Origin: Terebella lapidaria
Taxonomy: Eukaryota > Annelida > Polychaeta > Terebellida > Terebellidae
Length of the DNA stretch: 64,000 nt
Direction of reading: 5' to 3'
Assembly (NCBI GenBank): GCA_949152475.1
Contig: OX424568.1
Coordinates: forward strand, 24,837,667-24,901,666
The position numbers and the translations under genes are program-made. This document shows positions 17,875-64,000 of this stretch, piece after piece (the stretch's first letter is position 1; every line of letters starts with the position of its first letter). The notes beneath the pieces are model-generated. The model did not search any database. It worked only from the letters and a program-made list of their open reading frames with translations, and had not been told where the DNA came from.

Positions 17875-17970
17875 GTAAATATTGATTTGTCAGTATGTTG
17901 CAGGTGATCACACAAATTGGAAGTGGAGGTTAAACATCGTCTTGGGAAATGTCCTAGGTCACTTGGTTTG

Positions 17971-17982
17971 CCCCCCCCCCCC
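17971..17982 (+). repeat. Poly-C tract, unit 1 (12 C)
   Basis: This homopolymer follows GGTCACTTGGTTTG. The homologous tracts have 13 C near 24097, 18 C near 31120 and 17 C near 41088, so this is a hypervariable homopolymer inside the duplicated intron. Confidence 0.8.
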
Positions 17983-18118
17983 GCAGTGATATACCTGCAT
18001 CCTCAAATGTGTGTGTCTCTATTTAAACTGAGTATTGAGACGTGATCAGAAGTGAAAAAAAGTGGAAGCAATTCCAAAGGTATTCCGAGTGAATGATATC
18101 CGAGTCCATTATCCAATT

Positions 18119-20591: not shown

Positions 20592-20884
20592 AATTAGCCC
20601 AAAGGCGAAGATAGGTTACCGGACAATATATATTATTATATATAATAGCTATTTTGTCCTGTGGCCTTGAAAATAAGGTCACGGTCAAATTTAAAGTCAC
20701 GAGAGTATTCAGCATATTTGATTTCCTATACATCCACAATTGCTTACTAAGCTGTAAATTCAGTAATAAAAGAGATATTAGTCATTATGTCTGTGATCTT
20801 GAAAATGAAATCAAAAGTCAAATTAAAGGTCATCAGAATATTCAGCATATATCATTTGCTGTATGTCCACAATAGAATCCTAAC
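20592..20884 (+). repeat. Half-site repeat element, copy 2 (3'-truncated by duplication breakpoint)
   Basis: This starts with TTAGCCCAAAGGCGAAGATAGG and GGTTACCGGAC like the full copies. It stops at CACAATAGAATCCTAA and jumps into module B (ACATTTTTTTTTACAAACAG). At 32895 the same sequence continues into the 134-bp array, so 20884 is a duplication breakpoint and not an element end. Confidence 0.8.
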
Positions 20885-23784: not shown

Positions 23785-23957
23785 TCTATATTATCACAAC
23801 AAATCTTCCCTTGTACGCTGGTCATGTTTACGCTCTAGGTTGATGAACCCCCATGGATGAATTTCATGATCAGCTATTGAATGAAAATTCAACTTTCGCC
23901 TAGCAATCAATCAAGACTACGATCTCAAACTACTAGACATGATTGAGATGCGAAACC

Positions 23958-24000
23958 GAAAACTAACGAGGAATTCATCATGGGGAACAGGAAACTTAGG
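23958..24000 (+). pseudogene. Relic of SLC5 exon 1, unit 2
   Basis: Same 43-bp exon end and GTAAAT donor as the relic at 17832, in the same truncated context. It is identical in extent, so the truncation predates duplication of the unit. Confidence 0.85.
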
Positions 24001-24143
24001 GTAAATATTGATTTGTCAGTATGTTGCAGGTGATCACACAAATTGGAAGTGGAGGTTAAACATCGTCTTGGGAAATGTCCTAGGTCACTTGGTTTGCCCC
24101 CCCCCCCCCGCAGTGATATACCTACATCCTCCATTATCCAATT

Positions 24144-24306
24144 CTACGGAGCCGCTGAAAGGACATGGAAGAAATATTTTTTGACACATCGTTATTGCGT
24201 TCCCTCGCAATATTATTGCATTCCCTCGCGATCTTATTGTGCTCCCTCGTGTTCCGGATCACGTTCCTTCGCATTCCGGATCGCTTTCCCTCGATCCCTC
24301 TTAGAT
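24144..24306 (+). mobile_element. Single foldback-element arm, unit 2
   Basis: CTACGGAGCCGCTGAAAGG followed by TTCCCTCGC units, as at 18119. It is preceded by a ~100-bp deletion relative to unit 1 (CTACATCCTCCATTATCC). Confidence 0.8.
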
Positions 24307-24513
24307 CTAAAAAGTTGAAATATCAGAAGAGCCTTTATCGCCAAGTTCCTTAGGATATATGGTATCTATGCAAATAATCACAAAACTTATTCAGTTTTAC
24401 TAGATCATACTCATCGCTGATTTTGAATACACATGTGGATAAAAACAGATCATGCTTTTGTAGTGATCCGGGCATGATTTTACGGAACCAGTGCAACAAC
24501 GTGCACCTAACAT

Positions 24514-24900
24514 TGGTGCCTGCGGCCTCGTGGTATATGGTGACTTCAGGCAGATATCACGCCGTATTGGGGTCTGAAGCCCATGGTAACTCATAGTATT
24601 TACCATGAATATATAGACTTTCAGGTTCAATACCGATTGATACATGTGTTGGGACAATAGTCGAACAGCCACTTCCAATAGGCAATTGTCCAGAATAAAA
24701 CCAATCCAATGTTGTAATCACGGCGCAATATATCAATACTCCGAAATCAATGATATTTTGCATACACATTGGACTTACGAAGTGTCACATCTAAAGTTAA
24801 CTAGTCATTGTCGCAAAGCAGATGGCCTATGAAACATGGTTACTAAAAAATGGAGAACGTTTTCAATGATTCTCCACTTTTTTTAGCATCAATATCAGAT
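24514..24900. repeat. Chimeric junction: hairpin MITE right half plus a piece of module A
   Basis: Intron-1-like DNA ending CACCTAACATTG switches to GTGCCTGCGGCCTCG, the loop of the hairpin MITE. It runs through module A to TTTTAGCATCAATATCAGAT, then switches at 24901 into the middle of a foldback arm (CGTTATTGCGTTCCCTC). Two rearrangement joints therefore lie within 390 bp. No gene is present. Confidence 0.8.
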
Positions 24901-26337: not shown

Positions 26338-26624
26338 TATTATCATCGGATTGCTGTAAATGCGCGATTCTGATTGGTCAATTCCCCGACAATACCACGC
26401 CGTATTTGGAGAGCTGTGACGCAACCCCACGATATTTTCTGTATCGTGGGCTTCAAGCGGGTAATATGGAATGGCGTTTCAGAGAGTTCCATATAAACCA
26501 ATGATAAAATCGTTACCATGGACTTCAGACCCGAATACGTCATGATATCTGCCTTCAGTCAGCATATATGGTGACTTCAGGCAGATATCACGCCGTATTG
26601 GGGTCTGAAGCCCATGATAACTAA
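26338..26624. mobile_element. Hairpin MITE, copy 3 (diverged, tandem)
   Basis: Same start (ATCGGATTGCTGTAAATGCG) and same right end (AAGCCCATGATAACTAATAG), but with many substitutions. It is missing the CCGCCTGCGGCCTCG loop and has about 20 bp fewer in the left arm. It may record an older element lineage recombined next to copy 2. Confidence 0.65.
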
Positions 26625-27614
26625 TAGTATTTACCATGAATATATAGACTTTCAGGTTCAATACCGATTGATACATGTGTTGGGACAATAGTCGAACAGC
26701 CACTTCCAATAGGCAATTGTCCAGAATAAAACCAATCCAATGTTGTAATCACGGCGCAATATATCAATACTCCGAAATCAATGATATTTTGCATACACAT
26801 TGGACTTACGAAGTGTCACATCTAAAGTTAACTAGTCATTGTCGCAAAGCAGATGGCCTACGAAACATGGTTACTAAAAAATGGAGAACGTTTTCAATGA
26901 TTCTCCACTTTTTTTAGCATCAATATCAGATATTGTTTTATCAACGCCAACGAAGAATTACCTAGTTAGGTCATTTTTGGACCCAAATCAGACGAGTTTG
27001 AAAAACACTGCATTTTTTCTCATAATGCGGGGTGACATTTCTTATTTCCAGTGTATGTACTTATGCACAAGCAGACAAACTACACTTTCACACACTGTCT
27101 GCCACTGATCAGTCCAGTGTGGTTTTGGATGTACATTTCTGATCAGGTTTTGCGTATATTAGAAAAGTTATTCACTATAGGGTTTTATTGATTCCTTATA
27201 ATCTTATAACATATTGGTGATGAGTACAGACAAACAAATTTAGAGTGATTCAGTCCGATTAATACATGCTGTATTCACACATTCGCAGATCAGAGATCGA
27301 TTGTGATTATCCACGATATGCCTGTACATATAATGTGCTTGTCTGAGGCACATCCTAACACTCATGCATTTGTTATGTAAATAAACATTACATCACATCA
27401 ATGATATATTACACGAAACTTGCTATTGTGGCAGAGTACATGAATGGTTAGGTTGTCATTGATCAAGAGATTCCAATACGGCGAACCAGTCTATTGTTGC
27501 CTTAGACTCGAGTGATATGTGGAAAATACAATGAAATGTTTGACAAGATGCAGCTCTGTAAGCAGCAGATTGCTCATCTCATTTTACAAAGGTGTTGTCA
27601 AGTGAATACACAAA

Positions 27615-27907
27615 AATTAGCCCAAAGGCGAAGATAGGTTACCGGACAATATATATTATTATATATAATAGCTATTTTGTCCTGTGGCCTTGAAAATAAG
27701 GTCACGGTCAAATTTAAAGTCACGAGAGTATTCAGCATATTTGATTTCCTATACATCCACAATTGCTTACTAAGCTGTAAATTCAGTAATAAAAGAGATA
27801 TTAGTCATTATGTCTGTGATCTTGAAAATGAAATCAAAAGTCAAATTAAAGGTCATCAGAATATTCAGCATATATCATTTGCTGTATGTCCACAATAGAA
27901 TCCTAAC
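27615..27907 (+). repeat. Half-site repeat element, copy 3 (truncated)
   Basis: Matches 20592-20884 at an offset of 7,023 bp and stops at the same breakpoint. Confidence 0.8.
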
Positions 27908-29529
27908 ATTTTTTTTTACAAACAGTGTTTCGAAATCGTGCTTTAATTTCGAGTGTACACAATTTTCAGAATCGGATTCAGACTGATATGTTATGATGCA
28001 TTATGTATATCATGAAACCAAATATCCTCGATAGCTGGACCAAGATTTGGACGCATCATGATCATTACAACCTGCAACCTCTATCAGAAGGCACTGACGA
28101 GTCACGATAACTTTTCGGAGTAAAATCTTCGAGTTGGAGGATGGAAATCGGAAATATCATAACGTGTATGTTGTTACCCAAAATAGGGTTCAACCTTCAA
28201 CGTCCTTAAGTGATATTAATGGGAGGAAAAAAATATTGATCAATATTCTCGACCACGACCTGAATTCTAGATACTGACCTCTCAAATGTTGCAAACTCTC
28301 TCAGATTTATACTGTATAATTTATGTTCAATATTCTATGGAATATCGTACGTGGCTTTGGAATTACTACCAATTGAAATATTACGAATCAGTGATTTCAG
28401 CTGATGACCCTTACATTTTCGACCTTGGGCGATAATACGGAATTCTCATTGTATACCCATCGGTAATATAGCAATATCGGTATGATGACTGATTTAGAGA
28501 AATACAAAATGAACAGGGTAAAATTTAATATAAACAGAGTTATAGCAACTCATTTCATTCATTGAAATTCCTTCCTAAACTATATCTTCAGTATATTTAT
28601 TGCTGTCAAATGACACAGAGAACAAGAAAAATCATGACATTCAGATCACTAGTGGTGGAAGCACATGCTCCGGAATGCATCCATTTCCATGACTAGCTAC
28701 GCATGAGTTGCACCAAAGACGCTAAACTGTCAAACCACTCCTTCACATGACATTCAAGATTTGACTCATAGAATATTTTAACCATATTCGGGACGAGTCA
28801 CTCATTTATTGCGATATCGCATTTTATGCTCACTGGTTTGCTTCGTCGCCGTGTCTTATGATTTTTTGTTTGCATCATATTTGGCATCACGCAACAAATG
28901 TCAACATTCTATACCATTTTATCACCAACTATTGCACCCGCCATTTACGAATTTTGCATAGTGCAATATTTCTGCGAAACCCTGTAGATCCGAGTGTTTC
29001 TCTATCCTTGATTGTGCCACAGTAGTCGATCGATCCGGAATTAATGCTCAAAAGGCACATTGTCGCGAATATTGTCTTCACAGATATAAGCACTTACGTT
29101 TTGTTGACAATAGTGATCCAAATGTGTGCATGCCTAAAATGTCCCTTGATTTGTTGGCGATGTGGCTACCAGAAGGGAAATAACACTCACTGCAAATATT
29201 TATACAACGTTGGCACTTTATGGCCGAGAATGGGCTGAAAGATGGAAACACTGGTCACGCTTATGTTTTGATCGAACAGTCAAAACAAAAAGTGTTGTGT
29301 ATTCGTAAAGTGTGGCAAGAGGCGATACAGGATGCCATCATCTGTGTTTCTCACACATGGTCTGTGACCTTCACAATACAATTGATTTTGACACAAATGC
29401 AACTCGTATATGATTGTGTGAGGGCATGGCGTCGTTGGAAGTTCTGTCGGAGCATTTACACAACACATATTATTGTATGACCAGGAATTCTTCATGAACA
29501 AATATATAATATTGTGCGTTGTACATAGT

Positions 29530-30807
29530 TAAGTTCAGTTTGTTTATTAAAGTGACATAAGCATATGTATATACAGAAATGTAACACATGAGAAACATAA
29601 TGCTTCCAGCCTCACAGGGCTTACAGGTCACTATAAAGCAAACAATGATACATACAGATGGCAACACAGAATCACATAGATAATAACATAAAATCAACAA
29701 TATAAGTTATTTCGTCTGATTTCATATGCATCAGCAGTAAATCTGGCAACATATCTTTGACACTTTTGTAAAATGAGTATGAACAAATGTTCATTGGTAA
29801 TTTCTGTAATGTTTGGAATACATGATTCAGCCTTATAAAAAAGATTATCTCGTAAATGTGAATATAATGGGCATGACATAATAAATGGAACTCATCTTCA
29901 ATTTCTCCAAGTGCACATGCATTACATAATCTTTTGTCTACAGGTGTATTTGAATATCTCCCAGTTTCAATATGCAGAGGTAAAATACCAAGTCTGAGTT
30001 GAGCAAATAAAGAGCGTTGTGTTTTAGACATAAAATATTTAACATAATTTTCAATACAAAAATCATCTTTAAAGGTAACATAGGTACGTAAATTTGGCTT
30101 ACTGTATATAGATTTGGACCACCTTTCAACATTTAACTCATTCAATTTATCCGATACAATTTTCATGTCACAAACAATTTTGTCTTGAAATATGTTCTCT
30201 AGTTCTAAAATTGAAATTATACGCTTAATGTCGTTAGACCAGTTGTTTCGACATTTATGATAGTCATACATGAATACAAATTTGGTTAATCTATTGTCAC
30301 TTATATTGATCAATCTATTCCAGAATCTTAACATACATATATATCGTCTGCAGCCCAGTTCACCTTGCATGTCTGAGACTTGTGCAAATTTGTGTACCCA
30401 TAGATAATGTCGCATTGCTCTGTTTTGTACATTATTACAAAAATAAAATTTTTTATAACCCCATATTTCTGCAGCATAATCACTAATAGAAGTAACAATA
30501 TTAATATACAGTTTTTGAAATGTACCAAATCCTACATCTCTTAGGTGACTATACCTATAGATTATTCCAACAAGTGCCCTACCAGCTGATTCAGATAATA
30601 CTTGTGCACAATATTCAAAATCAAGATGTTCGTCCAAATATACACCGAGATACTTATATCTATCTACAAGGTCTAATACACAGTCTCCATATTTGGATAT
30701 ACTGTTTGTAACTTTAATTTTTTTGGGTCGAAGATACATGAAGTTTGTAACTTTAATTTTTTTTGATACTTAGATACATTCAACTTTAATTTAATACATA
30801 TTTTCAC
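29530..30807 (-). mobile_element. 5'-truncated LINE, copy 3
   Basis: A 355-codon frame (30739-29672) is nearly identical to copy 2, differing by a V-to-A change in the zinc-knuckle region. It is dead by truncation in the same way. Confidence 0.85.
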
Positions 30808-30980
30808 TCTATATTATCACAACAAATCTTCCCTTGTACGCTGGTCATGTTTACGCTCTAGGTTGATGAACCCCCATGGATGAATTTCATGATCAGCTAT
30901 TGAATGAAAATTCAACTTTCGCCTAGCAATCAATCAAGACTACGATCTCAAACTACTAGACATGATTGAGATGCGAAACC

Positions 30981-31023
30981 GAAAACTAACGAGGAATTCA
31001 TCATGGGGAACAGGAAACTTAGG
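30981..31023 (+). pseudogene. Relic of SLC5 exon 1, unit 3
   Basis: Same 43-bp exon remnant plus GTAAAT donor as at 17832 and 23958. Confidence 0.85.
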
Positions 31024-31171
31024 GTAAATATTGATTTGTCAGTATGTTGCAGGTGATCACACAAATTGGAAGTGGAGGTTAAACATCGTCTTGGGAAATG
31101 TCCTAGGTCACTTGGTTTGCCCCCCCCCCCCCCCCCCGCAGTGATATACCTACATCCTCCATTATCCAATT

Positions 31172-31334
31172 CTACGGAGCCGCTGAAAGGACATGGAAGA
31201 AATATTTTTTGACACATCGTTATTGCGTTCCCTCGCAATATTATTGCATTCCCTCGCGATCTTATTGTGCTCCCTCGTGTTCCGGATCACGTTCCTTCGC
31301 ATTCCGGATCGCTTTCCCTCGATCCCTCTTAGAT
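31172..31334 (+). mobile_element. Single foldback-element arm, unit 3
   Basis: Same arm as 24144-24306, following an 18-C tract at about 31120-31137. Confidence 0.8.
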
Positions 31335-31544
31335 CTAAAAAGTTGAAATATCAGAAGAGCCTTTATCGCCAAGTTCCTTAGGATATATGGTATCTATGCA
31401 AATAATCACAAAACTTATTCAGTTTTACTAGATCATACTCATCGCTGATTTTGAATACACATGTGGATAAAAACAGATCATGCTTTTGTAGTGATCCGGG
31501 CATGATTTTACGGAACCAGTGCAACAACGTGCACCTAACATTGG

Positions 31545-32611
31545 TGCCTGCGGCCTCGTGGTATATGGTGACTTCAGGCTGATATGACGCCGTATTGGGG
31601 TCTGAAGCCCATGATAACTAATAGTATTTACCATGAATATATAGACTTTCAGGTTCAATACCGATTGATACATGTGTTGGGACAATAGTCGAACAGCCAC
31701 TTCCAATAGGCAATTGTCCAGAATAAAACCAATCCAATGTTGTAATCACGGCGCAATATATCAATACTCCGAAATCAATGATATTTTGCATACACATTGG
31801 ACTTACGAAGTGTCACATCTAAAGTTAACTAGTCATTGTCGCAAAGCAGATGGCCTACGAAACATGGTTACTAAAAAATGGAGAACGTTTTCAATGATTC
31901 TCCACTTTTTTTAGCATCAATATCAGATATTGTTTTATCAACGCCAACAAAGAATTACCTAGTTAGGTCATTTTTGGACCCAAATCAGACGAGTTTGAAA
32001 AACACTGCATTTTTTCTCATAATGCGGGGTGACATTTCTTATTTCCAGTGTATGTACTTATGCACAAGCAGACAAACTACACTTTCACACACTGTCTGCC
32101 ACTGATCAGTCCAGTGTGGTTTTGGATGTACATGTCTGATCAGGTTTTGCGTATATTAGAAAAGTTATTCACTATAGGGTTTTATTGATTCCTTATAATC
32201 TTATAACATATTGGTGATGAGTACAGACAAACAAATTTAGAGTGATTCAGTCCGATTAATACATGCTGTATTCACACATTCGCAGATCTGAGATCGATTG
32301 TGATTATCCACGATATGCCTGTACATATAATGTGCTTGTCTGAGGCACATCCTAACACTCATGCATTTGTTATGTAAATAAACATTACATCACATCAATG
32401 ATATATTACACGAAACTTGCTATTGTGGCAGAGTACATGAATGGTTAGGTTGTCATTGATCAAGAGATTCCAATACGGCGAACCAGTCTATTGTTGCCTT
32501 AGACTCGAGTGATATGTGGAAAATACAATGAAATGTTTGACAAGATGCAGCTCTGTAAGCAGCAGATTGCTCATCTCATTTTACAAAGGTGTTGTCAAGT
32601 GAATACACAAA
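31545..32611. repeat. Hairpin-MITE half plus module A, copy 4
   Basis: Begins in the MITE loop (GTGCCTGCGGCCTCG), runs through the rest of module A and reaches GAATACACAAAAATTAGCCC, the left junction of a complete half-site element. This is the only unit in which the downstream order (half-site elements, lectin gene, SLC5) is preserved. Confidence 0.8.
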
Positions 32612-34050
32612 AATTAGCCCAAAGGCGAAGATAGGTTACCGGACAATATATATTATTATATATAATAGCTATTTTGTCCTGTGGCCTTGAAAATAAGGTC
32701 ACGGTCAAATTTAAAGTCACGAGAGTATTCAGCATATTTGATTTCCTATACATCCACAATTGCTTACTAAGCTGTAAATTCAGTAATAAAAGAGATATTA
32801 GTCATTATGTCTGTGATCTTGAAAATGAAATCAAAAGTCAAATTAAAGGTCATCAGAATATTCAGCATATATCATTTGCTGTATGTCCACAATAGAATCC
32901 TAAGTTGTAAATTTTATAATAAACAAGATATTAGCTAAGCTGTCCTGTGAGACATTGGAAATGAGGTCAAACGTCAATTTCAAGGTCACGACAATATTCA
33001 ACATATATCATTTCCTATATTTCCACAATTGATTCCTAATCTGCAATGTTGATAATAAGCGAGATGTTAGTCATCTTGTTCTATGACCTTGAAAATGAGG
33101 TCGAAGGTCAAATCCAGGGTCATCACAATATTCAAACTATATCATTTTTTATATGTCCACAATTGATTCCTAAGCTGTAAAGTCGATAATGAGCGAGATA
33201 TTACGCATTTTGTGCTCTGACCTTGAAAATCAGGTCAAAGGTCAAATTCAAGGTCATCAAAATATTCGGCACACCTCATTTCCTATACATTCACAAATCA
33301 GTCTCAAGCTGTAAAGTGGATAATAAGCGAGATATTAGCCATTTTGTTTTTTGACCTTGGAAATGAGGTCAAAGGTCAAATTCAAGGTCATCAGAGTATT
33401 CGGATTATATCATTTCCTATATTTGCACAATTGATTCCTAAGCTGTAAAGTCGATTATAAGCGAGATATTAGCCATTTTGTGCTCTGACCTTGAAAATGA
33501 GGTCAAAGGTCAAATTCAAAGTCATGACAATAATCAGCATATATCATTTCCTATGTGTTCATAATTGATTCCTAGTCTCTAATCTCAACATTAAGTGAGA
33601 TATTAGGCAAAATGTGTCCCATTATAAAGCATAGGAAAGTTTGACATGTGAAAGTCCCATTTGGGACCAGTCGAGAACATGAAAATGGCCGCCACACGCA
33701 GACCGGCGATTCAGGGGCAACGAAACTTATACCATCACAGAGGTATATGAGGGCAATGTTTTGAAACAAAAATCTCAAAACTGTCAGAACAGTCTTCGAG
33801 AAAATTGCCGCCAAAGTCAGAAATTGGCCGTTTTTTGTCGAAAATGGCCGCCATTTTGAAAAAAATGCAAAAAATAAAAAAACTAAAGAATACCCGCTTA
33901 TTGAATTATTTTTAGGCATTTTTGTGCAAAATTTCAGAAAGATTGACCTGTAAACTTTAAAGAAAAAAACGTGGACGGACGATGCCGCCGACGGACGACG
34001 GATGCAATGCCATGCCAATAGGTTGTCGGACCATAGGTCCGGTAACCTAA
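32612..34050 (+). repeat. Nuclear-receptor-half-site element, full copy 4
   Basis: TTAGCCCAAAGGCGAAGATAGG at the left, GGACCATAGGTCCGGTAACC at the right. The centre is an array of ~134-bp units, each reading roughly TGACCTTGAAAATGAGGTCA...TTCAAGGTCAT, TCATTTCCTATATG, CACAATTGATTCCTAAGC, GATATTAGCCATTTTGT. Exact AGGTCAAAGGTCA motifs lie at 33232-33244, 33366-33378 and 33500-33512. The 3' part has GCCGCCATTTTGA blocks and a GACGGACGATGCC tail. A 148-codon frame at 33572-34018 on the minus strand is composed of this repeat and is not a gene. AGGTCA direct repeats with 1-bp spacing are the established binding format of RXR-heterodimer/HNF4/COUP-type receptors, and TCAAGGTCA that of ERR/NR5A-type receptors. 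Whether they are used here is inference. Confidence 0.85.
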
Positions 34051-35587
34051 AAATTAGGCCAAGGGCTAAGATAGGTTACGGGACAATATATAATACCTAT
34101 TTTGTCCCGAGGCTTTGAAAATAAGGCCATGGTCAAATTTAAACTCACGAGAATATTCAGCATATTATATGGTTTCCTACATGTTCACAACTGCTACTAA
34201 GCTGTGAATTCAGTAATAAGATAGATATTAGTCATTATGCCCTGTGACATAATGAAAATGAAATCAAAAGTCAAATTAAAGGTGTCCACAACAGAATCCT
34301 AAGTTGTAAATTTGATAATAGACAAGATATTAGCTGAGTTGTCCTGTGAGACCTTGAAAATGAAGTCAAAGGTCAAATTCAAGGTCACGACAATATTCAG
34401 CATCTATAAATTCCTATCAGTCCACAATTGATTCTCAAGTTGTAAAGTCGATGACAAGCAAAATATTACTCATTTTCTTCTTTGACCTTGAAAATGAGGT
34501 CAAAGGACAAACCAGGGTCATCACAATATTTGAACAATATCATTTCCTATATGTCCACAACTGATTCCTAAGCTGTAAAGTCGATAATGAGCAAGGTATT
34601 GACCATTTTGCACTCTGACCTTGAAAACAGGTCAAACGTCAAATTCAAGGTCATCAGAATATTCGGCATATGCCATTTCCTATATGTCCACAATTGATTC
34701 CTAAGGTGTAAAGTCAATAATAAGTGAGATATTAGCCATTTTGTACCTGACCTTGAAACTGAGGTCAAGTGTCAAATTCAAGGTCATCAAAATGTTCGGC
34801 ATACATCATTTTGTATGCGTCCAAAATTTAGTCCCAAGCTGTAAAGTGGATAATAAGCAAGATATTAGCTGTTTTGTTCTTTGACCTTGAAAATGAGGTC
34901 AAAGGTCAAATTCAAGGTCATCAGAATATTCGGATTATATCATTTCCTATATGTGCACAATTGATTCCTAAGCTGTAAAGTCTATCATAAGCGAGAGAGT
35001 AGCCGTTTTGTGCTCTGACCTTGAAAATGAGGTCAAAGGTCAAATTCAAGGTCATGACAATAATCAGCATATATCATTTCTTATGTGTGCATAATTGATT
35101 CCTAGTCTCTAATCTCAATACTAAGTGACATATTAGGCATAATGTGTCCCATTATAAAGCATAGGAGAATTTAACATGGAAAAGTCCCATTTGGGACCCG
35201 TCGAGAAAATGAAAATGGCTGCTACACGCAGACCGGCGATTCAGGAGCAACAAAACTTATACACATCAAAGAGGTATGTGAGAGCAATTTTTGAAATAAA
35301 AATTTCAAAACTGTCTGAACATTTTTTTAAAAAATGGCCGCCAAAGTCACAAATTGGCCGTTTTTCGGCGAAAATGGCCGCCATTTTGAAAAAAATGCAA
35401 AAATCAAAAAACTAAAAAATAGTCCCCTCTTGAAATATTTTTAGGTATTTTTGTGCAAAATTTCAGAAATATCTGATTGTAAACTTTAAAGATAAAAATG
35501 TGGACAGACGACGCCGACGCCGACAATGGACGACGGACGCAACGCCATGCCAACAGGTTATCGGACCATAGGTCCGGTAACCTAAAA
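34051..35587 (+). repeat. Nuclear-receptor-half-site element, full copy 5 (tandem to copy 4)
   Basis: Starts TTAGGCCAAGGGCTAAGATA and ends GGACCATAGGTCCGGTAACC. It has more 134-bp units than copy 4, with exact AGGTCAAAGGTCA at 34896-34908 and 35030-35042 and diverged versions elsewhere. After its end the sequence resumes as AAAATGATATCGGAACG, matching the uninterrupted site at about 10008. Confidence 0.85.
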
Positions 35588-35674: not shown

Positions 35675-38600
35675 CTAGAACTGGCAGAAGTACATTAGCC
35701 TTGCAGTGCAGTCCCCATCATTCCACTTCCATCCCCAGTTAGGCACCACTTGGATACAGTCATCGCTTGGGGTGCTCTCTTGGGGTTGGGTGATGTACCA
35801 GCGAGTGAAACTCACCGCCTCGCCGCTGTTCATCCAGTAGAACTCGTATTGACCCCCGCCATTCGGCCGACGACCTGATGTCCAGAACACCTCGCCCCCT
35901 AGACCCACTGTGATGATAGCCTTTTCATTAGTCAAATAAAAGTGATTGAATCTCGAAAACTTAGTCACTTAGTCACAAACGAATATATTCTTCTCTTATT
36001 CATCTCTAGTTATCTCACTGTGAACCATGCTTCATGAATGAATGGACCCTTGTCTGACGATATGCGCCTAATGGTTCATCTATAGAATCACTTTCATCAC
36101 AAACTTTTCCTCCCCGTTCACTTACTCATGGCAGTTTTGAGGTTGTCGTGTTCGGCCAATGATGTAATGTCAGCCAGATGAGTTCCTGGGTGGAGTTTTG
36201 GACAAAGGTCGAGCGCCTCGTCAGGTGTCAGATCGTACCCATACATGTGGCAAACACTTTGGTCACTACACAGACCTGCAATACATGGGATGGGATTTTT
36301 ATTAAACATATTGAAAACCTGAACAAAAGTATGTGGAACAGAAACAAATCCAGACGTAACAAAACATCCAAGACCCCTACATTTGTCATTGGACATAAGA
36401 GTGTCAACTGACTAAAACAAGGTTTAAATGGAAAAAAAAATATCATGATAAATTTTAGTTCCTTTCTACGGTGGCTTCTATCTGCCACAATTAGTAGTTT
36501 AGATTTTTGCTCCAGCTAAAATAAAAAATACAATATTAACACGTCGGAAATAATTCAAAACAATTCTGACGCGTCAAAAACATTTCAGACGCGTCATAAA
36601 CATTTCACAATTCCGATACATCATAAACATTTCAGACGCGTCGAAAACATTTCAGACGCGTCATAAACATTTCCGCCGCGTTGAAAACATTTCAGACGCG
36701 TCAAAAACATTTCAGACGCGTCGATAACAATTCCGATGCTTCATATTCATTTCAGACGCGTTGAAAACATTTCCGACGCGTCATAAACTTTCCGACGCGT
36801 CTAAAACATTTCTGATGCGTCTAAAACATATTCGATGCATAGAAAATAATTCAAGATGCATATGAAACAGCTCTGATGTTTATGCATCGGAAATTATTAA
36901 GTGCCCCTTAAACCTGAAGTATTTTCTATTTGCATACACCGGAAATGTTTCAGACGCATCAGAAATGGTTTTAGAAAATGTTTTAGACACATTTAAAATA
37001 GTTTTAGACGCATCGAAAATATTTTAGATCCATCGAAAATGTTTTAGACGCATATAAATTAATTTAGATGCATCAAAAATATTTTGGATGCATCAAAAAT
37101 GCTTCAGACGCATCGAAAATATTTTACATGTATCAAAAATGTTTTAGTCACATCGAAAATATTTTAGACGCATCGAAAATGTTTTATACACATCTAAAAT
37201 AGTTTTAGGCGCATCGAAAATATTTTAGTGGTGTTGAGATTGACTCTATTTTAAATTTCTTCTTTGAATCTTTGCTCGGGAGCAAAACTCATAATTTTGG
37301 CAAATAGAAGCCACCGTAGCTTTCAAATATTTTTTGAAGAAAAATATTAAAGTATTATTTCAAATGTGCGATGCGGTCCAGTGAATTCTAGTTGGATATA
37401 TGGGTTTTTATAACTGTAAACTCACTGTTCAATCTGTTTTATATATGGTATAACTTGATTTGTGTTTCATTATAATGATCCAAGTTTTATAATGGGGTTG
37501 GAGTGTGGAATTTGTGTTAAGTATGTCAAGAATCTATTATGAACGAGACAATCAGAGATTGCAGACCCTCGCCCTTCCAGATTTAGTTTTACTGAAAATA
37601 TATAGTTGATGACCCTTAGATTTTCTACCTGGACAATAATCGGGGATTTTGGTCGTACTATCATTGGTCATATATAAATTGTTCCGAAATTGGCCATAAA
37701 AAATACAAAAATCATGGGAGAAATGATCATTAATCAAAGTAGAGTAACTTTTTCTATCTTGAACATATTCTCGACCTGTCGATCATGACCTGAATTCTTG
37801 ATACTGACAACCCAAACTTCACCAGCTATCACAACTTTATACTGCATACTGTAATTCAACATTCTATTGAATATTGTCGTATTGGGAATTACCAAACCTC
37901 GAAATACTACGAATCAGTGATTTCGGCTAATGACCCTTACACTTTCTACCTTGGGCGATACGACCATCGGTCATACAGCAAATGATCGGAATTGAGCACT
38001 GAAAAATACAAAATTATTAAGGGAAATTAATCACTAATATAAGTTATTGCTACTTTTCGATTTTTATCTTTTCTCTGACCTTGACCTTGTCGATCAATAT
38101 TGAGCTGTAAAATTCCAGAGTATTGTTTCTATCATCCAGCCACATCTCCTGAATGAGAATGGGTTAAAACGAATGAAAACTAGCTTCACAATATATATGG
38201 CCTTGAGTCTCAGAACACTCAAAAGTCGTAAAATAATATTTCGACATCGGGCGATAATGGAGGGTTTTCGTCGTATGACCATTGGTCGTACACCATACGA
38301 TCGAGCATTTGGCCAAAGAAAAACACAAAAATAGTTGGAAGAACAAATATCAAGTAGAACCAGAGTTAAAGTTAATTATGTGATTTTCCATTTTCCGTTG
38401 CCATGACAACCATTTTTATTCGAATTTGACAAAATTCGAAGGAGACCGAGCCACTACCATAGCGCTTCAGTCCTATAAATTTCAGAATTATAGAACCGTT
38501 TGTCATTGAGTTATAAGCGCAAATATCGGAAATAACCGAAACCGGGAACCCCCAATTTTTTGACATCGGTCGATAATGGAGAATTTTAGTCGTACGACCA

Positions 38601-46700: not shown

Positions 46701-49700
46701 ATCAAACAAATTAATGTGGTGATTTCTTGATTTGACTATATATGATAAACTAAGTGGCTGCCTATTGATGCCTCGATTGCCATCAAACTGATTACGCAAT
46801 CACTCTCCCCAACAGTTAATCAAGGCAGGGGGGTGGGGGGGGAGCAGGGGGAGGTGAAATGCCTCATTCACAATGAAATAGTTGGTGTTTGTCTGACAAG
46901 CTACAAGAACAATGTGAATGCCGTAATAAAAAGAGCCCCAAATAATCCTGCCGAGGGTATGGAGTAAATAATCTGAAGTAATAGCAATTGTAATATATAT
47001 TACATATTACAATTGAGATATATTACTATTACATAAAAAAAAGAAGCTATTTGGAAAAGCTATTACTATTATATTACTATTACTTGGAAAAATGTAATCG
47101 TTACTATTACTATTACAATTACATATTACTATTACCCCAGGCCTGATACTTACATCCTTATTATGAATCAAGAGCAAGATGCAGCCTTACACCGAAAACG
47201 TACAATATATTCTCTGACCTGCTGCTATGTATTTCAATGATGCTCACTTCACTTTGGTAAACCTGAACAGCTTTCCTGATCCAACCATACGTCACACCCT
47301 GTGGGCTTTCTTGCTTGGAGGGGGCCTTGGCAACAGTGTCATCTCAGGCCTATCACAGCCCAGCGTGCAGAGATATGGTGCCCTTCCGTCTCTCAGACAA
47401 GCTAAAAAGTAGGAATAAAAAACAAACAAATGGTATTGGACCAACATAGGAATATTCAAGTTGATACACAATTTTGTATGTATTGGGATACTGTACTAAA
47501 TGATGCGCACTAAAACATATTCATGCAATGCAGCCCTTAGATCTAGGTGCTGCTGCTGAAAAAAAAACATGAACAGATAAATTTACCATATAGTACAATC
47601 CGAATACGTTCTGAACTTACAGAATGCTTCTTCTGTGGTGGATCGGAACATGTTTAATGGGCTCCCTGTCTTTTCTCACGGGTCTTCTATTGTTTGTCTA
47701 CTATGAAAAGAAACAATGTGACCCGATTGCAAGTCACACGATATCATCCTCAAACGAAGTATAATATTCTATTCAAAATTAACTGTTATTGAACTGAATT
47801 GGTATTTATTAAAACCATCGGAAACATTCTTTGCAATAGGGTAATTTCAGTGGATCCCGCGGGGTTTTTCCTCAATTTCAGGTTGTCCCTTTGTTCGTCT
47901 CGACAGTTTTCAAGGGGTACATTGGATTCCCAGGACTATTTCTTGCCACCATGTATAGTGCGACACTCAGGTATTCAACCACTGGCAAGGATTGGTGAAC
48001 TTATAAAAAATGTTCTTACAGTTGAAGAACCTGACGAATCCGATGCCCATTGAAAAAAAGTCGCTACAATTCAATCGCTACAATTCAACGATTGACGGTA
48101 TACTAGTAGGTTTTGCTTTCAGCACTGTATCATCCACACTCTCCGGTGCTGCAGCAAACGGATGGACGGATATCTTGGAACCATTCTTCCCGAACCTATC
48201 AGAAAAAAGCGCTACCTTAGTTAGTAAACTTCTGGGTGAGTATAGATTCAGGTGAATATAGAAGACTCGCGAAGTATTGGTTTGGAATTGCAATGTTTGT
48301 TTGAGAATTAGGAGTCAGTAATTTCAACCAAGCAGTGATGTGTTACGAGGAAATAATAGTTACCTAATATAAGTTCGAGGTTAACCTCTTGAATCTGTCA
48401 TGATTAGAGTAAATTCATTCATTCACTGTCTGAAGGTTTCCGGAAATATGAGTATCTCTGTCCTACTATTGGAATGTCAATACTACTGGCCATTTTTTAC
48501 CTCTATTTTCCTCTCAAATTTAGTGATGGTAACTGGAATTATGGCGATGGCGTTTGCGTTTAGTGTTTCATCATTCAAAGGACCCCTGATGTTTGTAAGG
48601 ATGTTATAGTCTTTAAGCGTATAGTATGTTTCTAAAAGTTACAACGTTGCCATTTTCCATTCATTCATCAAGTGTAAGTGAATAACTGTGACTGTCACAA
48701 AACTTTTCGCAAGTTTTAATAATTACTACCATTCATATTTCAGATTTGCATCTCCTTTTTCTCTGCAATTAATGGTCCCATTCTCGGGATGTTCATACTG
48801 GGCGGGATACGATCTTTCCGTAGCGTCTCCTGGAAGGTCAGGTCTTACCATTAATTTTAATATTACTACATCCCATGACCTCAATATTAATTAGTGGAAC
48901 ATTGCTTTTTGACTTCTCGACAGACATCTTTTGCCCTGCTTTCAGAGCGTTTTTTGTGGGGGATTAGTAGGGTTCGTGGCAACTCTTTGGGTCACGTTTG
49001 GATCAAGGACGGTGGAGGGCGGAGCTTCAACTCTACCCCCAGCCTCGACTGCTGCCTGTCAGCTGAATGCTACTGAAGAATGGTCGGGGACTTCATTCTG
49101 GTTTAACAGAACGAACGGTTGGCCGGATAACGCAACCTGGATGAACGTATCAGACTCGGGCACTAACACCTGGCCACTTACAGACAACCAACCATTGTAT
49201 GTGTGACCAACTATTCCAGGCCATTGAATGAGTTGATTCCACAAGTTCTATACTACGGAGCCTCTGAGAGGACATGGAAGAAATATTTTTAGCACATTGT
49301 TATTGCGTTCCCTCTCAATAATATTGCATTCCCTCGCGATATTATCGCGTTCCCTCGTGATCTTATGGCATTCCCTCACAATCCGGATCGCGTTCCCTCG
49401 CGATCTTATTGTGTTCCCTCGCAATCCAGATCGCGTTCCCTCGCGATATTATCACATTCCCTCGCGATCTTATTGCGTTCCCTTGCATTCCGGATCGCGT
49501 TCCCTCGCGATCTTGTAGAATAACCTTCTCAGAAGTCAATGGCGTCAGCACAATGCGAGGGAACGCGATCCAGAATGCGAGGGAACGCAATAAGATCGTG
49601 GGGGAACACGATAATATCGCGAGGGAATGCGATAATATCGCAAGGGAACCAATCTGGATTGCGAGGGAACGCGATCCAGATTGCGAGGGAATGCAATAAG

Positions 49701-50616
49701 ATCACGAGGGAACGCGATCCAGAATGCGAGGGAACGCGATAATATTGCGAGGGAACGCAATATTATTGTGAGGGAATAATACTGCGAGGGAACGCAATAA
49801 CAATGTGCTAAAAATATTTCTTCCATGTCCTCTCAGAGGCTCCGTACTATACAGTTCTATAAAACTAATACAAATTTGACCCAGTGATAAACATGGAAAC
49901 AATACCCAAGTAATATTATTGGCTATGTATGGAAAATATCAGCAGATGTAGTGGGACTGGGACAAGTTGCAACAAAATTGGTCTTTCCCATCAAGGAAAA
50001 GTTTGATAATAATTGTTTTTTTCTCCCAATTGTAACTACATGATAAAGTGACATATCATAGCTGAATATATTGTGTATGGAAAGAGTCACCAAGACAAGT
50101 GAGGATAAGGGAGATTTCTTGTTCCACATTAAAATTTTAACTAAACAACAAATCTTACTTATCCTATTGCATGGCAAGTGGATGAACAAGCACATTGCAA
50201 AGTCACGAATGATAGCTGTACCCAGTCTCCTTCAAATTACCTCGATGCCCGGGCATGTTGAATCATTACTCAGTTTAAGATAAAGCTGTCATTTATGTGT
50301 GTAAAAAATTTTATTTATCGAGAATAACAAGATTTGGTGACTCTTGTCATATACGATACATTCAGCTCTGATATGTCACTATATCATGTATAGGTAGTTA
50401 CCATTAGGTATACAACTTCATTGACCAACCTTTACAGTTTTATTGAGCACCTAAAACTTGACACAATGAACACACAGGCTTGTATAAGCGTTCAACATTC
50501 ACACCCCTTTTGCAGGCAAGGACTAGATAGGTTCTACAGTCTATCATACCTTTTCTACACTTGGTTTGGGATGCTGGTTACACTGGCGGTGGCGTTTCTT
50601 GTCCACTTGCCCTCAT
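40703..50616 (+). CDS. SLC5-family sodium-coupled (monocarboxylate-type) transporter, 15 exons placed
   Basis: A plasma-membrane sodium/solute symporter, closest in my reading to SLC5A8/SLC5A12/SLC5A6-type proteins. Exons: 40703-40837, 42274-42468, 42840-42908, 43171-43222, 43715-43782, 43917-43997, 44208-44281, 47271-47408, 47623-47758, 47882-47970, 48123-48235, 48524-48594, 48744-48836, 48946-49196, 50516-50616. All have GT-AG borders and joining phases, giving about 555 residues. Signatures are DYLIFVAFLASSLGIGLYHA and GGKQKTNEEFIMGNRKLR (exon 1), SYMSALTIVGGPAEMYSYG (exon 2), GGIKAVIWTDVFQS (exon 6), DPTIRHTLW and VQRYGALPSLRQAKK (exon 8), GFPGLFLATMYSATL (exon 10), STVSSTLSGAA (exon 11) and LDRFYSLSYLFYTWFG (exon 15). 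There are about 13 membrane segments. Exon 14 encodes an extracellular loop with N-glycosylation sequons (NAT, NRT). No break was seen. The substrate cannot be fixed from sequence. Exon 8 could begin slightly differently. A terminal exon is proposed separately. Confidence 0.9.
40880..42190 (+). repeat. SLC5 intron 1, source-like copy of module B
   Basis: This intron matches the right-hand part of module B (TTGAGTATTGAGA, a poly-C tract, GTTGAAATATTAGAAGAGCC, CTTCTGGGGCTCTTGAGCAG). It lacks the foldback arm and carries about 400 bp the duplicates lack (41060-41530). It is therefore closest to the ancestral arrangement. Confidence 0.75.
41088..41104 (+). repeat. Poly-C tract in SLC5 intron 1 (17 C)
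   Basis: Equivalent to the C runs in the duplicated units (12, 13 and 18 C). Confidence 0.8.
44348..45753 (+). mobile_element. CCCTCGCCC-family element in SLC5 intron 7
   Basis: Starts TTACCCTCGCCCCCGTAGGG with a G-run and the TTGTATTTGGGTCTGTCTG block, and ends CTCTGATTGTCTCGT, the reverse orientation of 12019-13612 and 37543-38904. Three to four internal ~300-bp modules repeat TAACTCCGGTTCTA and ATTATCGCCC. No coding capacity. A target duplication is not obvious here. Confidence 0.75.
45970..47200 (+). repeat. Interspersed repeat (GTTGGGCAGTTGTATACT family) split by a hAT-like MITE
   Basis: TCCATGGGGTTTGTTTCGG, GTTGGGCAGTTGTATACT, ACACTGTCTACCCC and GGTGGTAATAGATTGATACT match 54195-55350 in order. 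The family is interrupted at 46220-47145. Related tails lie at 14690 and 58920. The element class is unknown. Confidence 0.65.
46220..47145. mobile_element. hAT-type non-autonomous element, 926 bp, 8-bp TSD
   Basis: The termini CAGGCCTGGGGT and ACCCCAGGCCTG are perfect inverted repeats. They are flanked by ATACTTAC at 46212-46219 and 47146-47153, an exact 8-bp target duplication. The CAGG start and 8-bp duplication are hallmarks of hAT elements (established knowledge). Inside are TTACTATTAC-rich low-complexity arms and a non-coding centre. The uninterrupted target (AATAGATTGATACTTACAT) is seen at 55336 and 58928. Confidence 0.88.
49254..49846. mobile_element. Foldback element made of TTCCCTCGC-type units (593 bp, 6-bp TSD)
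   Basis: Terminal inverted repeats begin TACGGAGCCTCTGAGAGG and remain matched through AAATATTTTTAGCACA. They run into arms of ~21-bp units (TTCCCTCGCGATCTTATTG in the left arm, the reverse complement in the right). The central loop is about 40 bp (49512-49550). CTATAC flanks both sides (49248-49253 and 49847-49852). It sits in SLC5 intron 14. Nearly the whole element can fold into one hairpin. Open frames in it are translations of the minisatellite and not genes. Single arms of a related element lie in the duplicated units. Confidence 0.9.
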
Positions 50617-60882: not shown

Positions 60883-61090
60883 TGTGAAGTGTACAATTTA
60901 CACGATGAGCCAAGGAGTATCAGCGCAATTTTGAAAGTGGATCATGGAGGACAAGACTTTAAGAAGTTATTTACAATTTGGTCACATCCATTCAATGTAT
61001 TTTCTCTACATGGGCGATTCAAGTGTGTGTGCCTTGAGAGGAAATTGCAACCCCTCATTCGACACCTCAGTCACCACGTATGATTGTATA

Positions 61091-61986
61091 TGTAACAAAA
61101 CCATGCAACTGCCGCGCTGAAACGTTCGTTAGGAACGGTCACGTGATCTACAAAGTCCACTTGCGAAGACACCGTTCGCGGAAGAACCGTTCGCGGAAGC
61201 ACGATTGCGGAAGCATCATCAGCGGAAGCATCGTTCGCGGAAGAACCGTTCGCGGAAGCACGATTGCGGAAGCATCATCAGCGGAAGCATCAGTCGCGGA
61301 AGCACCGTTCGCGGAAGAGGAGCCTTCGCGGAAGAACCGTTCGCGGACGCAGTCTTCACCACGTGGAGAAGAGTGCGGAAGATACGTTCGCGGACGAAGA
61401 TGCGCGCGCAGCCACCCTGGCTATATAAGGGAGAGCGGACGGCCGCTCTGAGAGCACTGCAACAGCGACATCGACCGTGGGGAGATCGTCACCGCCACAG
61501 CCAAGGGACTCGACGAACTCCGTGCGGACGACTCCTTCTTCAGGGCCTTAGAGTCAACCGGGATTTAGACCGACTACCTGGAGAAACCATTCGACTAAGC
61601 GGGACGGGAAACTTCAACGGGAAGGGACAGAGAGACGCCGCCGGCTAAGAACTCTTTTTAGTTGTGCCCTCGTGCACTATTTATTTTTGAAATGTGATCA
61701 TACAGTGCTCCATGTCTGAACTTCATATTTGTACGTCACGTGGGTGACCAGCCATACAATTGTAAGTTGATTTGATGTATATAAATCTTCAATTTATTTA
61801 CATCTGAGTTGCTTCTTGCCTAAGTGAAGCCGGTGAGCTACGGAGTGATGATACACCAGCGTTGGGGGACACCAATTTAGTGACGGCTCTCGAATCACAA
61901 CGAGCGGGAGTTACATAAAGTCTATACGATCAGAGAAACCAGGTTTTTTGGGCCACACCGAAAACAAGTCATTACCAAACGTCACA
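61091..61986 (+). repeat. Probable 5' LTR with TATA box and TTCGCGGAA array
   Basis: A TATATAA at 61422-61428 sits downstream of a GC-rich array (61163-61400) with about eight TTCGCGGA-type motifs. This places the array in the U3 promoter region. The left boundary is not proven. Confidence 0.5.
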
Positions 61987-61988
61987 AC

Positions 61989-62006
61989 TTGGTGCCGTGA
62001 CCAGGA
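61989..62006 (+). other. Primer-binding site, tRNA-His-like
   Basis: TGGTGCCGTGACCAGGAT (from 61990) lies directly after the LTR. Its first 12 bases are complementary to the 3' end of animal tRNA-His (GUCACGGCACCA, including CCA). That tRNA identity is from memory of the tRNA-His acceptor stem. Confidence 0.55.
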
Positions 62007-62049
62007 TCCCCGAGGGTCTACTGCCAGGGAACGAACCTCAGCATCACTC

Positions 62050-64000
62050 ATGTCCGGCGAAAACGACGAAACTGCCCCAGGGAAGACAGGAGGTGAAGAG
62101 GAAGACTCTTCGCGGACGGCCTCACTTGCGGACGAGGAAGACAGCGGTTCGCGGAAGCCGACCTTTGCGGAAGAGGGAGACGACCGTTCGCGGAAGACGT
62201 TCGCGGAAGACGACCGTTCGCGGAAGACGTTCGCGGACGACAACCGTTCGCGGAAGACGACCTTGGCGGAAGAGGCCGACGACCGTTCGCGGAAGACAAC
62301 GTTCGCGGAAGACGACCGTTCGCGGAAGAGCAGCTTCACAGCCAGGGGTAGACGGGACGTTTCGACGAGTGAGGAGCAACCAGGGAGGTCGAGACCTTCC
62401 ATGGGCCAGTCGACTAGTCAACAGAGACCCCGGAGCCAGACACCCGACAACCGTTTTCTTTTCAGACACGACTCTGGGTGGCAGCACGATCGAGACAGGG
62501 AGAGGTCAACCTACCTTGAGAGCGTTAGGAGGGGCCCCGAGTTCCGACGAGTGCTGGGACCGGAGTACGTCAATCTGGACGGGGAGGACGGCGAAATCTG
62601 GGCGAGGAGGGATCGGCTACAGCTACCGGAGCAGAGTCCAAGTGTGGCACCTCCAGAGAATGCAGCATTGAGACGGCTTTGGGACCAGTCCCAGCAGCAG
62701 TCTGGTGCAACAGAGCAGCAGTCTGGTGCAACAGGGCAGCGGTCGGGTGTGACGAGTCGACAAACGGGAGTGACTGGAGGACGGGTTACTTGGGCTCCGA
62801 CCCAAGAGAGCAGCTCGAGAGGGAGAGGACTTTTCGCGGAAGAGAACATTCGCGGACGAGAGGCATTCTTCGGCGACAGGGACGCTTGCAGCCGGGGATC
62901 CTTCGTGGATGAACGGGCTCGTGGGCGAGGGGGAGTCTTTGGTGACGAGGACGCTTGTGACCGGGGAGGGCCCTTCGCGGACGACCACGTTCGCGGACGA
63001 GGACGACTCGCGGAAGAGAGTGTTCGCGGAAGAGAGGAGTCTTCACCCAGACGGCGGCTCGACGAAAGGAGTGATCCAGGCGACCAATCTTCCTTTCCAG
63101 TTTTTCAGAATAGACGGGGAAGACCATTCGCGGATGAGCCGGTTCGCGGAAGACTCGCGGAAGATGGCGTTCGCGGACGTGCATCTTTTGTGGAGGGACG
63201 TCTCCGAGACATCTTGGCGGACGAGCCCGTTCGCGGAAGACTCGCGGAAGACGGCGTTCGCGGAAGAGGCCTGTTCGCGGAAGAACTTCTTCGGGAGCTG
63301 TTGGCGGAAGAGTCCGTTCGCGGAAGGTTCGCGGAAGACAGTGTTCGCGGAGGGTTCGCGGAAGACAGCGTTCGCGGAAGAGGGAGGTCTTCACCCAGTC
63401 GACAACCGAGACAGCCAGCCTCCTGGAGAAATCCAGCTTCTATTTCAGTCACCCAGGGAGGCCGGAGACAGCACCCTTTCTCATCATCGGGCGATGAGGG
63501 GCCTTCATCTGATGGAGGGACCGACAGCAGCCATGGTTACCCAGGACGGGGGAGGAGACCACCGAGGCGGGGACCGCCGCTGCACCGACGAAGCCCTAGG
63601 CCGAGACGGAGGCAGGAGGACTCGTCGTCCGAGGACAGCACAGCCTGGAATCAGAACGGCAGAAGGAACCGGAAGATGCTGACCCCTGACAAGTTCGATG
63701 GGACTTCCATAGAGTGGCCGGTGTACCGGGCCCACTTTGACGTCATCGCAGAGGTCAACGGATGGAGCAAGCGGGAACAGGGCGTCTACTTAGCCGGGAG
63801 CTTGACAGGAGAGGCGCGACGAATGCTGACCAGCCTGAGTCCTGCAGACCGGAGGGACATCGACGTTCTGACCGACAAGCTGACCCTACGATTCGACCCT
63901 GACTGTCAGGAGGAGTCCTACAAGGCGACCTTGGGACAGAGAACCCGCAGGAAGGCAGAGACACCCCAGCAGTACGGCTATGAGTTGCAGCGACTGGCCG
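62050..64000 (+). CDS. Gag-like protein with polyampholyte repeat N-terminus (open to window end)
   Basis: One frame from ATG 62050 stays open to the window edge. Residues ~20-440 are low-complexity, alternating acidic FAED/AEED and basic VRGR/RSRKT blocks from a TTCGCGGAAGA-type repeat, with Q-rich (QQQSGATEQQSG) and SR-rich pieces. From about 63676 the frame becomes a typical retrotransposon gag core: LTPDKFDGTSIEWPVYRAHF, NGWSKREQGVYLAGSLTGEA, RF-P-C and QYGYELQRLA. That core is the particle-forming part of Ty3-type elements (established family knowledge). The repeat-rich extension is unusual. Other long frames here on both strands are shadows of the repeat. Confidence 0.75.
   Translation, partial: MSGENDETAPGKTGGEEEDSSRTASLADEEDSGSRKPTFAEEGDDRSRKTFAEDDRSRKTFADDNRSRKTTLAEEADDRSRKTTFAEDDRSRKSSFTARGRRDVSTSEEQPGRSRPSMGQSTSQQRPRSQTPDNRFLFRHDSGWQHDRDRERSTYLESVRRGPEFRRVLGPEYVNLDGEDGEIWARRDRLQLPEQSPSVAPPENAALRRLWDQSQQQSGATEQQSGATGQRSGVTSRQTGVTGGRVTWAPTQESSSRGRGLFAEENIRGREAFFGDRDACSRGSFVDERARGRGGVFGDEDACDRGGPFADDHVRGRGRLAEESVRGREESSPRRRLDERSDPGDQSSFPVFQNRRGRPFADEPVRGRLAEDGVRGRASFVEGRLRDILADEPVRGRLAEDGVRGRGLFAEELLRELLAEESVRGRFAEDSVRGGFAEDSVRGRGRSSPSRQPRQPASWRNPASISVTQGGRRQHPFSSSGDEGPSSDGGTDSSHGYPGRGRRPPRRGPPLHRRSPRPRRRQEDSSSEDSTAWNQNGRRNRKMLTPDKFDGTSIEWPVYRAHFDVIAEVNGWSKREQGVYLAGSLTGEARRMLTSLSPADRRDIDVLTDKLTLRFDPDCQEESYKATLGQRTRRKAETPQQYGYELQRLA

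Follow-up and report, generated by a model that had tools for sequence, protein, structure and literature searches.

Why should one short DNA word be repeated dozens of times in both the long terminal repeat (LTR) and the gag gene of a single retrotransposon? The question is raised by the end of a 64,000-nucleotide stretch of the Terebella lapidaria genome (contig OX424568.1, positions 24,837,667 to 24,901,666; hereafter the window), where a Ty3-type LTR retrotransposon begins on the plus strand at position 61091 and runs beyond the window to 72003. A preliminary description of this DNA had reported about 35 motifs, eight of them in the LTR before the TATA box and the rest in two blocks of gag, and had suggested a repeated protein-binding site, possibly of the STAT type. 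Here, we argue that the element probably encodes the protein that reads the word, a regulator with two C2H2 zinc fingers and its own site arrays, which most likely acts as an activator in a positive loop.

The reported abundance and placement of the motif were borne out. The plus strand of the window has 35 matches to TTCGCGGA and the minus strand none (1.01 expected, at most 4 among 100 shuffles). Of these, 34 lie inside the retrotransposon (starts 61175 to 63371): 8 in the LTR, before its TATA box at 61422, 10 in the first gag block (62109–62326), and 16 in the second (62833–63378); the remaining match is at 56979. Between 61091 and 63400, the plus strand holds 50 copies of the wider core GCGGA and the minus strand 0. 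Families are labelled F1 to F10 in this analysis, F1 being that of the window element. Ranked by enrichment among 5-mers, GCGGA comes first in the F1 LTR and second in the 5' part of F1 gag. In the 1,457-base stretch that extends from the internal array (described below) to the 3' LTR and consists mostly of the finger-protein open reading frame (ORF), it is eighth. Across the 762 Mb searched in 438 contigs, TTCGCGGAAG gave 19,134 matches versus 1,184 for the same word read backwards, while the 24-base pattern TTCGCGGAAGANNNNNTTCGCGGA gave 1,683 and the 20-mer primer binding site (PBS) TTGGTGCCGTGACCAGGATC 1,728, with none for either backwards control; we infer that the F1 family numbers hundreds of copies.

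Within gag it is the DNA word, rather than a peptide, that recurs, as had been claimed. Counting as a unit any site with at least 7 of the 10 letters of TTCGCGGAAG, 38 gag units are read as F-A-E-D (20 units), V-R-G-R (11) and R-S-R-K (7); the first two readings had been noticed before, and the third frame completes the account. A comparison at third-codon positions, which had been recommended as a check, proved uninformative, as fourfold degenerate gag sites agree with the word at nearly all core places (55 of 56) and nearly all others (19 of 20). This equal conservation would also suit selfish tandem expansion, by slippage or template switching, of a functionless GC-rich unit, as would the unit numbers that differ among copies and the spacers between units that the F1 LTR array shares with the internal array. 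We regard that explanation, together with the related idea of an RNA packaging signal, as improbable: the core is invariant while the TTC half and the spacers vary, the same word stands at separate places in the element, and other families repeat the layout with a different word. RNA structure or a known RNA was likewise unsupported, with gag block 1, the only block folded, not clearly exceeding shuffles (z −1.65, 12/200) and with no Rfam match in 60900–64000.

Base by base, the units show which part of the word is kept. We compared 60 units (14 from the LTR, 14 + 24 from gag, 8 from the internal array), picked by 7/10 similarity to TTCGCGGAAG, a criterion that favours no position. Positions G3, G5, G6, A7, and G9 are invariant in all 60, and C4 is changed in 4, giving a core tally of G60, C56, G60, G60, A60, then A46/C10/T2/G2, then G60. 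Mismatches fall instead on T0 (10), T1 (5), C2 (11), and A8 (14), the TTC half and the last A of GAA, so that both STAT half sites, that is TTCNNNGAA, are kept in only 32 of 60 units. An array of STAT sites was rejected on these grounds, the constant part being G(C)GGA-n-G, and the STAT link of the preliminary description falls with it. Its broader proposal holds up better: a repeated protein-binding site is the best reading of the word.

A candidate for that protein is encoded by the element. Its two LTRs, PBS, and protease–reverse transcriptase–RNase H–integrase order place it among the Ty3-type (Metaviridae) retrotransposons, and TATA is found on both of its flanks (read by eye). All its features lie on the plus strand. 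The 5' LTR (TGTAAC...CACA, 61091–61986) holds the first array, 14 GCGGA units at mostly 14–15-bp steps (61166–61400), upstream of the TATA box TATATAA (61422–61428), and the PBS follows 2 nt past the LTR end (61989–62008). The gag ORF runs from the first in-frame ATG at 62050, in a frame open from 61948, past the window's end at 64000 into the next 9,934 contig bases (L009; window position = L009 position + 64000); it includes word block 1 (62109–62329, frames RSRK and FAED), word block 2 (62833–63381, frames FAED and VRGR), and, near its end, a Pfam zf-CCHC zinc knuckle (L009:3–605). Pol follows in two frames (L009:569–2767 and 2768–5650) with one in-frame stop between them and the Pfam domains aspartyl protease, RVT_1, RNase H, H2C2, and rve in that order. 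Behind pol come a fourth array of eight words in 14–15-bp steps (L009:5666–5779), a second, internal TATA (L009:5848), and, with its ATG 42 bp past that TATA, a 365-aa ORF for the finger protein (L009:5890–6987). The 3' LTR (L009:7108–8003, 896 bp), which carries a copy of the first array, is 100% identical to the 5' LTR (896/896), indicating a recent insertion. Two further loci, L040 and L041, are apparently solo F1 LTRs, 92 and 95% identical and with other unit numbers (17 in L041 versus 14).

The protein starts with MNTPTLQIIEIPAFADEDFGDVPDFDLADFLPLEVD and consists of an acidic hydrophobic N-terminus (11 D/E, 2 K/R, and 16 FWYILVM in the first 45 residues), a basic RS stretch, and two C2H2 fingers. 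By eye, we take the N-terminus to resemble VP16-type activation domains. Pfam finger models match the protein only below their curated cut-offs, the best matches in the PDB are C2H2 proteins that bind DNA (E down to 3.6e-05), no Tas/Bel-1-type Pfam family appeared up to E 10, and viral contigs yielded no match to the finger protein, to a piece of the integrase, or to the word pattern. The two motifs are paired and carry helix residues at base-contact positions: Arg, Asn, and Thr at −1, −4, and −7 in finger 1 (CSPCRIHVTASNFSRHVATKH), which has 11 rather than 12 residues between Cys and His, and Arg, Asp, and Arg in finger 2 (CKMCSQRFARRADRDRHETSH), forming the quartet RADR. In the C2H2 code, G is read by Arg, Lys, or His, A by Asn or Gln, and C by Asp (PMC12264921). 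The C-terminal finger takes the 5' triplet, and the predicted F1 site is therefore GCG-GAn, with GCG for finger 2 and GAn for finger 1. All five predicted bases (5/5) match consecutive well-kept positions of the F1 word, and the position facing Thr is the variable one; in TFIIIA finger 3, Thr at −7 is too distant from its base (PMC12264921). A RADR quartet in a Zif268 variant bound GCGT with a Kd of 0.035 nM, GCAC with 0.068, and GACC with 9.3 (PMC3002361); the base after GCG in the F1 word is G, unlike the T of that GCGT site. The opposite finger order was tried and dropped: in F1, GANGCG occurs once versus 4.3 in shuffles. For the related families introduced below, the swapped sites were GGNGNG in F7 (7 versus 8.7) and F4 (9 versus 5.3, 38/400 shuffles) and GANGCG in F9 (2 versus 0.3, 18/400) and F10 (2 versus 0.2, 6/400).

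The F1 fingers are under purifying selection. No stop interrupts the query in 112 scored copies of the ORF, the best of 1,712 first-look candidates. Compared with the window element, the old copy L065 has dN 0.016 and dS 0.41 in the fingers (dN/dS 0.04) against 0.131 and 0.51 in the middle region (0.26), and the old copy L067 has 0.024 and 0.34 (0.07) against 0.115 and 0.54 (0.21). Words stand before the finger ORF in both (3 in L065, 5 in L067, 8 in the window copy). Two codon-excluding patterns for finger 2 returned nine rows representing seven loci, four of them F1 copies and three unrelated (L064, L068, L069).

Do related elements share this arrangement? Their lacking the arrays had been named in the preliminary description as grounds for giving up a role of the word. 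Within the family, the older copies L065 and L067 keep their arrays, and L066 has lost the part of the element that would hold them; related families carry arrays of other words; and TTCGCGGA was not found in the LTR sides of 20 elements, none of them F1 copies, drawn from the 100 primer sites listed among 1,728. One of these 20 is F2, whose integrase is ~67–68% identical to that of F1. F4 (gag 61% and integrase 66% identical to F1; LTRs 99.9% identical over 1,020 bases) has five GGGCGA in ~75 bp after pol, then a TATATA, and then an ORF for a protein with an acidic N-terminus, a basic stretch, and two C2H2 fingers; its LTR holds six GGGCGA in the 120 bp before the TATA and a longer array downstream of it. 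The gag stretch of F4 that was seen contains one GGGCGA and no array; gag arrays occur in F1 and F2. Searching with the F4 ORF gave 74 matches, of which eight loci, fetched in 14 stretches, correspond to F7, F6, F5, F9, F10, L092, and host multi-finger genes; the latter (L085/L086 and L091) were dropped. F7 has an open two-finger ORF, with finger 2 ending in Cys, and the words GACGGGG and GGCGGGG (RCGGGG). F9 and F10 have the word CGGGTC and an ORF homologous to that of F7 (E 6.9e-28), in which the finger region is missing from one copy and broken in the other, and F6 has a broken ORF and 8 GGGCGA in its LTR versus 0.42 expected. In alignments between ORFs, F1 and F4 match clearly in finger 1 only (E 0.002), while F1–F7 (1e-07) and F4–F7 (6e-07) align over both fingers.

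We then counted each family's word over a span of 250 bp (for the F4 LTR, 120 bp) upstream of the LTR TATA and of the internal TATA, with GCGGA as the word for F1 and GGGCGA for F4, and with F9 and F10 counted once, as one family. Own-word counts (LTR/internal) were 14/9 in F1, 6/6 in F4, 4/5 in F7, 5/3 in F9, and 2/4 in F10, values reached by 0–8 of 1000 shuffles, whereas foreign words occurred 0 or 1 times; for the core GCGGA before the F1 LTR TATA, the 14 compare with 1.55 expected (0/1000 shuffles). The words had been chosen mainly from LTR arrays, making the internal promoters the more independent test.

Arrays of one word before two TATA-like boxes, an ORF whose fingers are kept by selection, and the same layout with other words in other families together point to the self-encoded regulator proposed above. 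The F1 finger protein would bind the GCGGA core, finger 2 on GCG and finger 1 on GA(n), as the code predicts. Bound arrays would act before the LTR TATA, driving the gag-pol transcript, and before the putative internal promoter, driving the protein's own gene; the acidic N-terminus and the layout suggest a positive loop in which the protein would activate each of the two promoters. Further sites would be supplied by the gag arrays; these may work as downstream sites that gag tolerates, there being no stop in any frame of the unit.

The same protein and sites could serve a different end. The main rival, which we hold to be rather unlikely, is a VANC-like anti-silencing activity that removes methylation or chromatin marks along the element. 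It would account for sites in gag (F1) and downstream of the LTR TATA (F4, F7) as well as at promoters, every word in the matrix includes a CpG, and same-orientation, family-specific, tandem-growing arrays match VANC targets (PMC5735166); a promoter factor is better suited by the enrichment right before both TATAs in F1, F4, F7, and F9/F10, by the activation-domain look of the F1 N-terminus (by eye), and by the lack of an array in the F4 gag stretch seen. More doubtful still is that the protein represses its own element to limit copy number, or serves as a mark for integration targeting. Sites before TATA boxes suit a repressor too, and sequence cannot tell repression from activation, but the many identical ORF copies speak of recent activity and the N-terminus is acidic and hydrophobic.

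If protein and word evolve together, a change of residue should go with a change of base. Position −4 of finger 1 is His in F4, F7, the broken F6, and F10 (the last read by eye from DNA), where the matching word base is G, and Asn in F1, where it is A, a contrast that fits the C2H2 code (His to G, Asn to A). Facing Lys at −1 in finger 2, the outer base is split between G and A, 25 and 11 of 36 in F4 and 23 and 17 of 42 in F7 (with 2 T); as Lys thus goes with either base, only the inner GGG fits in these two families. We can offer only tentatively the idea of a lock-and-key clade, in which each family's two-finger protein and its own word change together by the code and F2, lacking the gene but keeping a GCGGA array, uses the F1 protein.

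F2 deserves attention here, and brings in a third rival. Its word, CTCCGCA/TGCGGAG, shares the GCGGA core of F1 but lies on both strands, with 15 copies in the LTR, 11 in the 5' part of gag, and 17 in the 3' internal region (<0.4 expected for each). Its LTR holds 22 GCGGA/TCCGC versus 1.9 expected, with more in gag and the 3' region, all in an element in which no finger gene was found; either the F1 protein or a host factor may act on F2. The words in general could instead be bound by a host factor whose sites have a GCGGA core (STAT, ETS, or another), in which case the finger ORF would be unrelated or a competitor. GCGGAAG resembles an ETS site, and an unrelated control LTR (L044) holds 3 GCGGA versus 0.4 expected (3/400 shuffles), the five controls having 0, 3, 0, 0, and 1; for GNGGG, control LTR L061 has 6 versus 3.4 (38/400). 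We consider a host factor unlikely, since three other families of this host (F4, F7, and F9/F10) have different words in front of their two TATAs, the F1 core fits the element's own fingers at 5/5 bases, and lone TTCGCGGAAG matches look near chance (17 in the first 8.7 Mb of the matches listed, or 1.95 versus 1.55 per Mb backwards). At the F2 loci L052, L070, L062, and L075, the gag word is partly read as A-P-Q-M, one copy has its 3' region doubled with an 811-bp step, and a short ORF with a hydrophobic segment occupies the place of the finger gene.

Several observations weigh against a self-encoded activator or its co-evolution with the word. The word was already known when the fingers were decoded, two fingers leave G9 and the TTC half of the F1 word unexplained, as well as the CGA of the F4 word, and only one family with Asn underlies the Asn/His contrast. 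The full code prediction GNGGG is not above shuffles before the TATAs of F4 (4 versus 5.8) or F7 (9 versus 11.4), nor in F9 or F10. The largest LTR array of F4 and F7 sits downstream of the LTR TATA, and the F7 N-terminus is less clearly acidic (11 K/R beside 13 D/E in the first 45 residues). F2 showed no C2H2 motif in one copy, whose internal region was scanned whole, or in the element part of a second; a looser search of the second copy's 3' part gave one match, beyond the 3' LTR and so outside the element. Selection on the fingers is less marked in L066 (dN 0.053, dS 0.35, dN/dS 0.15, one stop codon skipped), and in the young copy L063 it is hardly stronger than in the middle region (dN 0.023 and dS 0.114, ratio 0.20, versus 0.028 and 0.123, ratio 0.23). 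An array was not found in F5 (L083, L084), and neither L083 nor L097 has a clear one; L095 has GGCGGG words before a broken ORF with Gln at −1, and in L092 the broken finger ORF is preceded by CACGTTCG/ACGTAGAA words, an array at odds with the code of the other families. Activation, rather than repression or anti-silencing, is a guess.

L095 and L097 belong to the three further loci fetched from the 12 matches of the F7 ORF, none of them counted in the word matrix; the third, L093, is an old F7 copy with two GACGGGG before its TATA. No word was found in L097, no array in L094, L096, L098, or L099, which were likewise left out of the matrix, neither an array nor such a PBS in F3 (L073), and no element part was seen in L071. 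In F9/F10 (L087, L089), the copy that lacks the finger region keeps the flanking parts in an open 367-aa frame, whose product, if made, might be an antagonist. On the LTR side of the same PBS, L055 carries an array of 20-bp GTTTGTGCC units.

Elsewhere in the window, long repeats occupy 14727–18004, 19290–24900, and 26340–31928, where stretches of 3.3 and 5.6 kb recur in pairs at ~98–99% identity. Another amplified CG-rich word is a 21-bp unit, TTATCGCGTTCCCTCGCGATC, which together with its reverse complement makes up two arrays that face each other (49300–49514 and 49554–49776); shorter relatives occur at 18167, 24192, 24903, and 31220. Tandem arrays of 133–134 bp with AAGGTCA-type repeats are found at 32662–33606 and 34283–35104, and 20-bp arrays of the AAAACATTTCAGACGCGTCA type at 36557–37228.

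How does the F1 arrangement compare with known systems? In Drosophila gypsy, an array of su(Hw) sites in the 5' leader of a Ty3-type element forms an insulator, and su(Hw) is a host zinc-finger protein. The likeness lies in a zinc-finger site array inside a Ty3-type element; the difference is that the F1 finger protein is the element's own. Narrow literature queries with partial coverage, which are no proof of absence, found no LTR retrotransposon with a self-encoded finger regulator. If our proposal is correct, the sequence-specific regulator of a Ty3-type retrotransposon comes with the element, which reduces its dependence on host enhancers, and a family with hundreds of copies would also scatter one binding-site array over the genome. 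Such a loop is already known in foamy viruses and, by other chemistry, in plant VANDALs.

In foamy viruses (Spumaretrovirinae), the regulator Tas/Bel-1 binds the internal promoter with high affinity and, at higher Tas levels, the LTR, forming a positive loop (PMC3798896; see also PMC8670036 and PMC4929722). As proposed for F1, the internal promoter lies near the 3' end, upstream of the regulator gene, and regulator sites stand before both the internal and the LTR promoters; the loop is described there and proposed here. The F1 layout and the word enrichment at both TATAs fit such a circuit, with promoter use and binding as predictions. Unlike foamy viruses, F1 is Ty3-type, its regulator ORF follows directly after pol with no room for env, and the regulator has C2H2 fingers and would act on many, family-specific word repeats.

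VANC proteins are DNA-binding proteins encoded by Arabidopsis VANDAL elements, whose short motifs form same-orientation tandem arrays, and motif and protein differ together between families (PMC5735166). F1 and its relatives likewise combine a predicted element-encoded DNA-binding protein with family-specific motif arrays, and the arrays differ along with the protein in F1, F4, F7, and F9/F10. VANDALs are plant transposons rather than LTR elements, VANC lowers DNA methylation, and the F1 sites, unlike those of VANDALs, lie before TATA boxes and in gag. The accessible text of PMC5735166 leaves the specificity region of VANC open and does not contain the term 'zinc finger', whereas in F1 the finger positions can be read, which makes the joint change of protein and word between families testable base by base.

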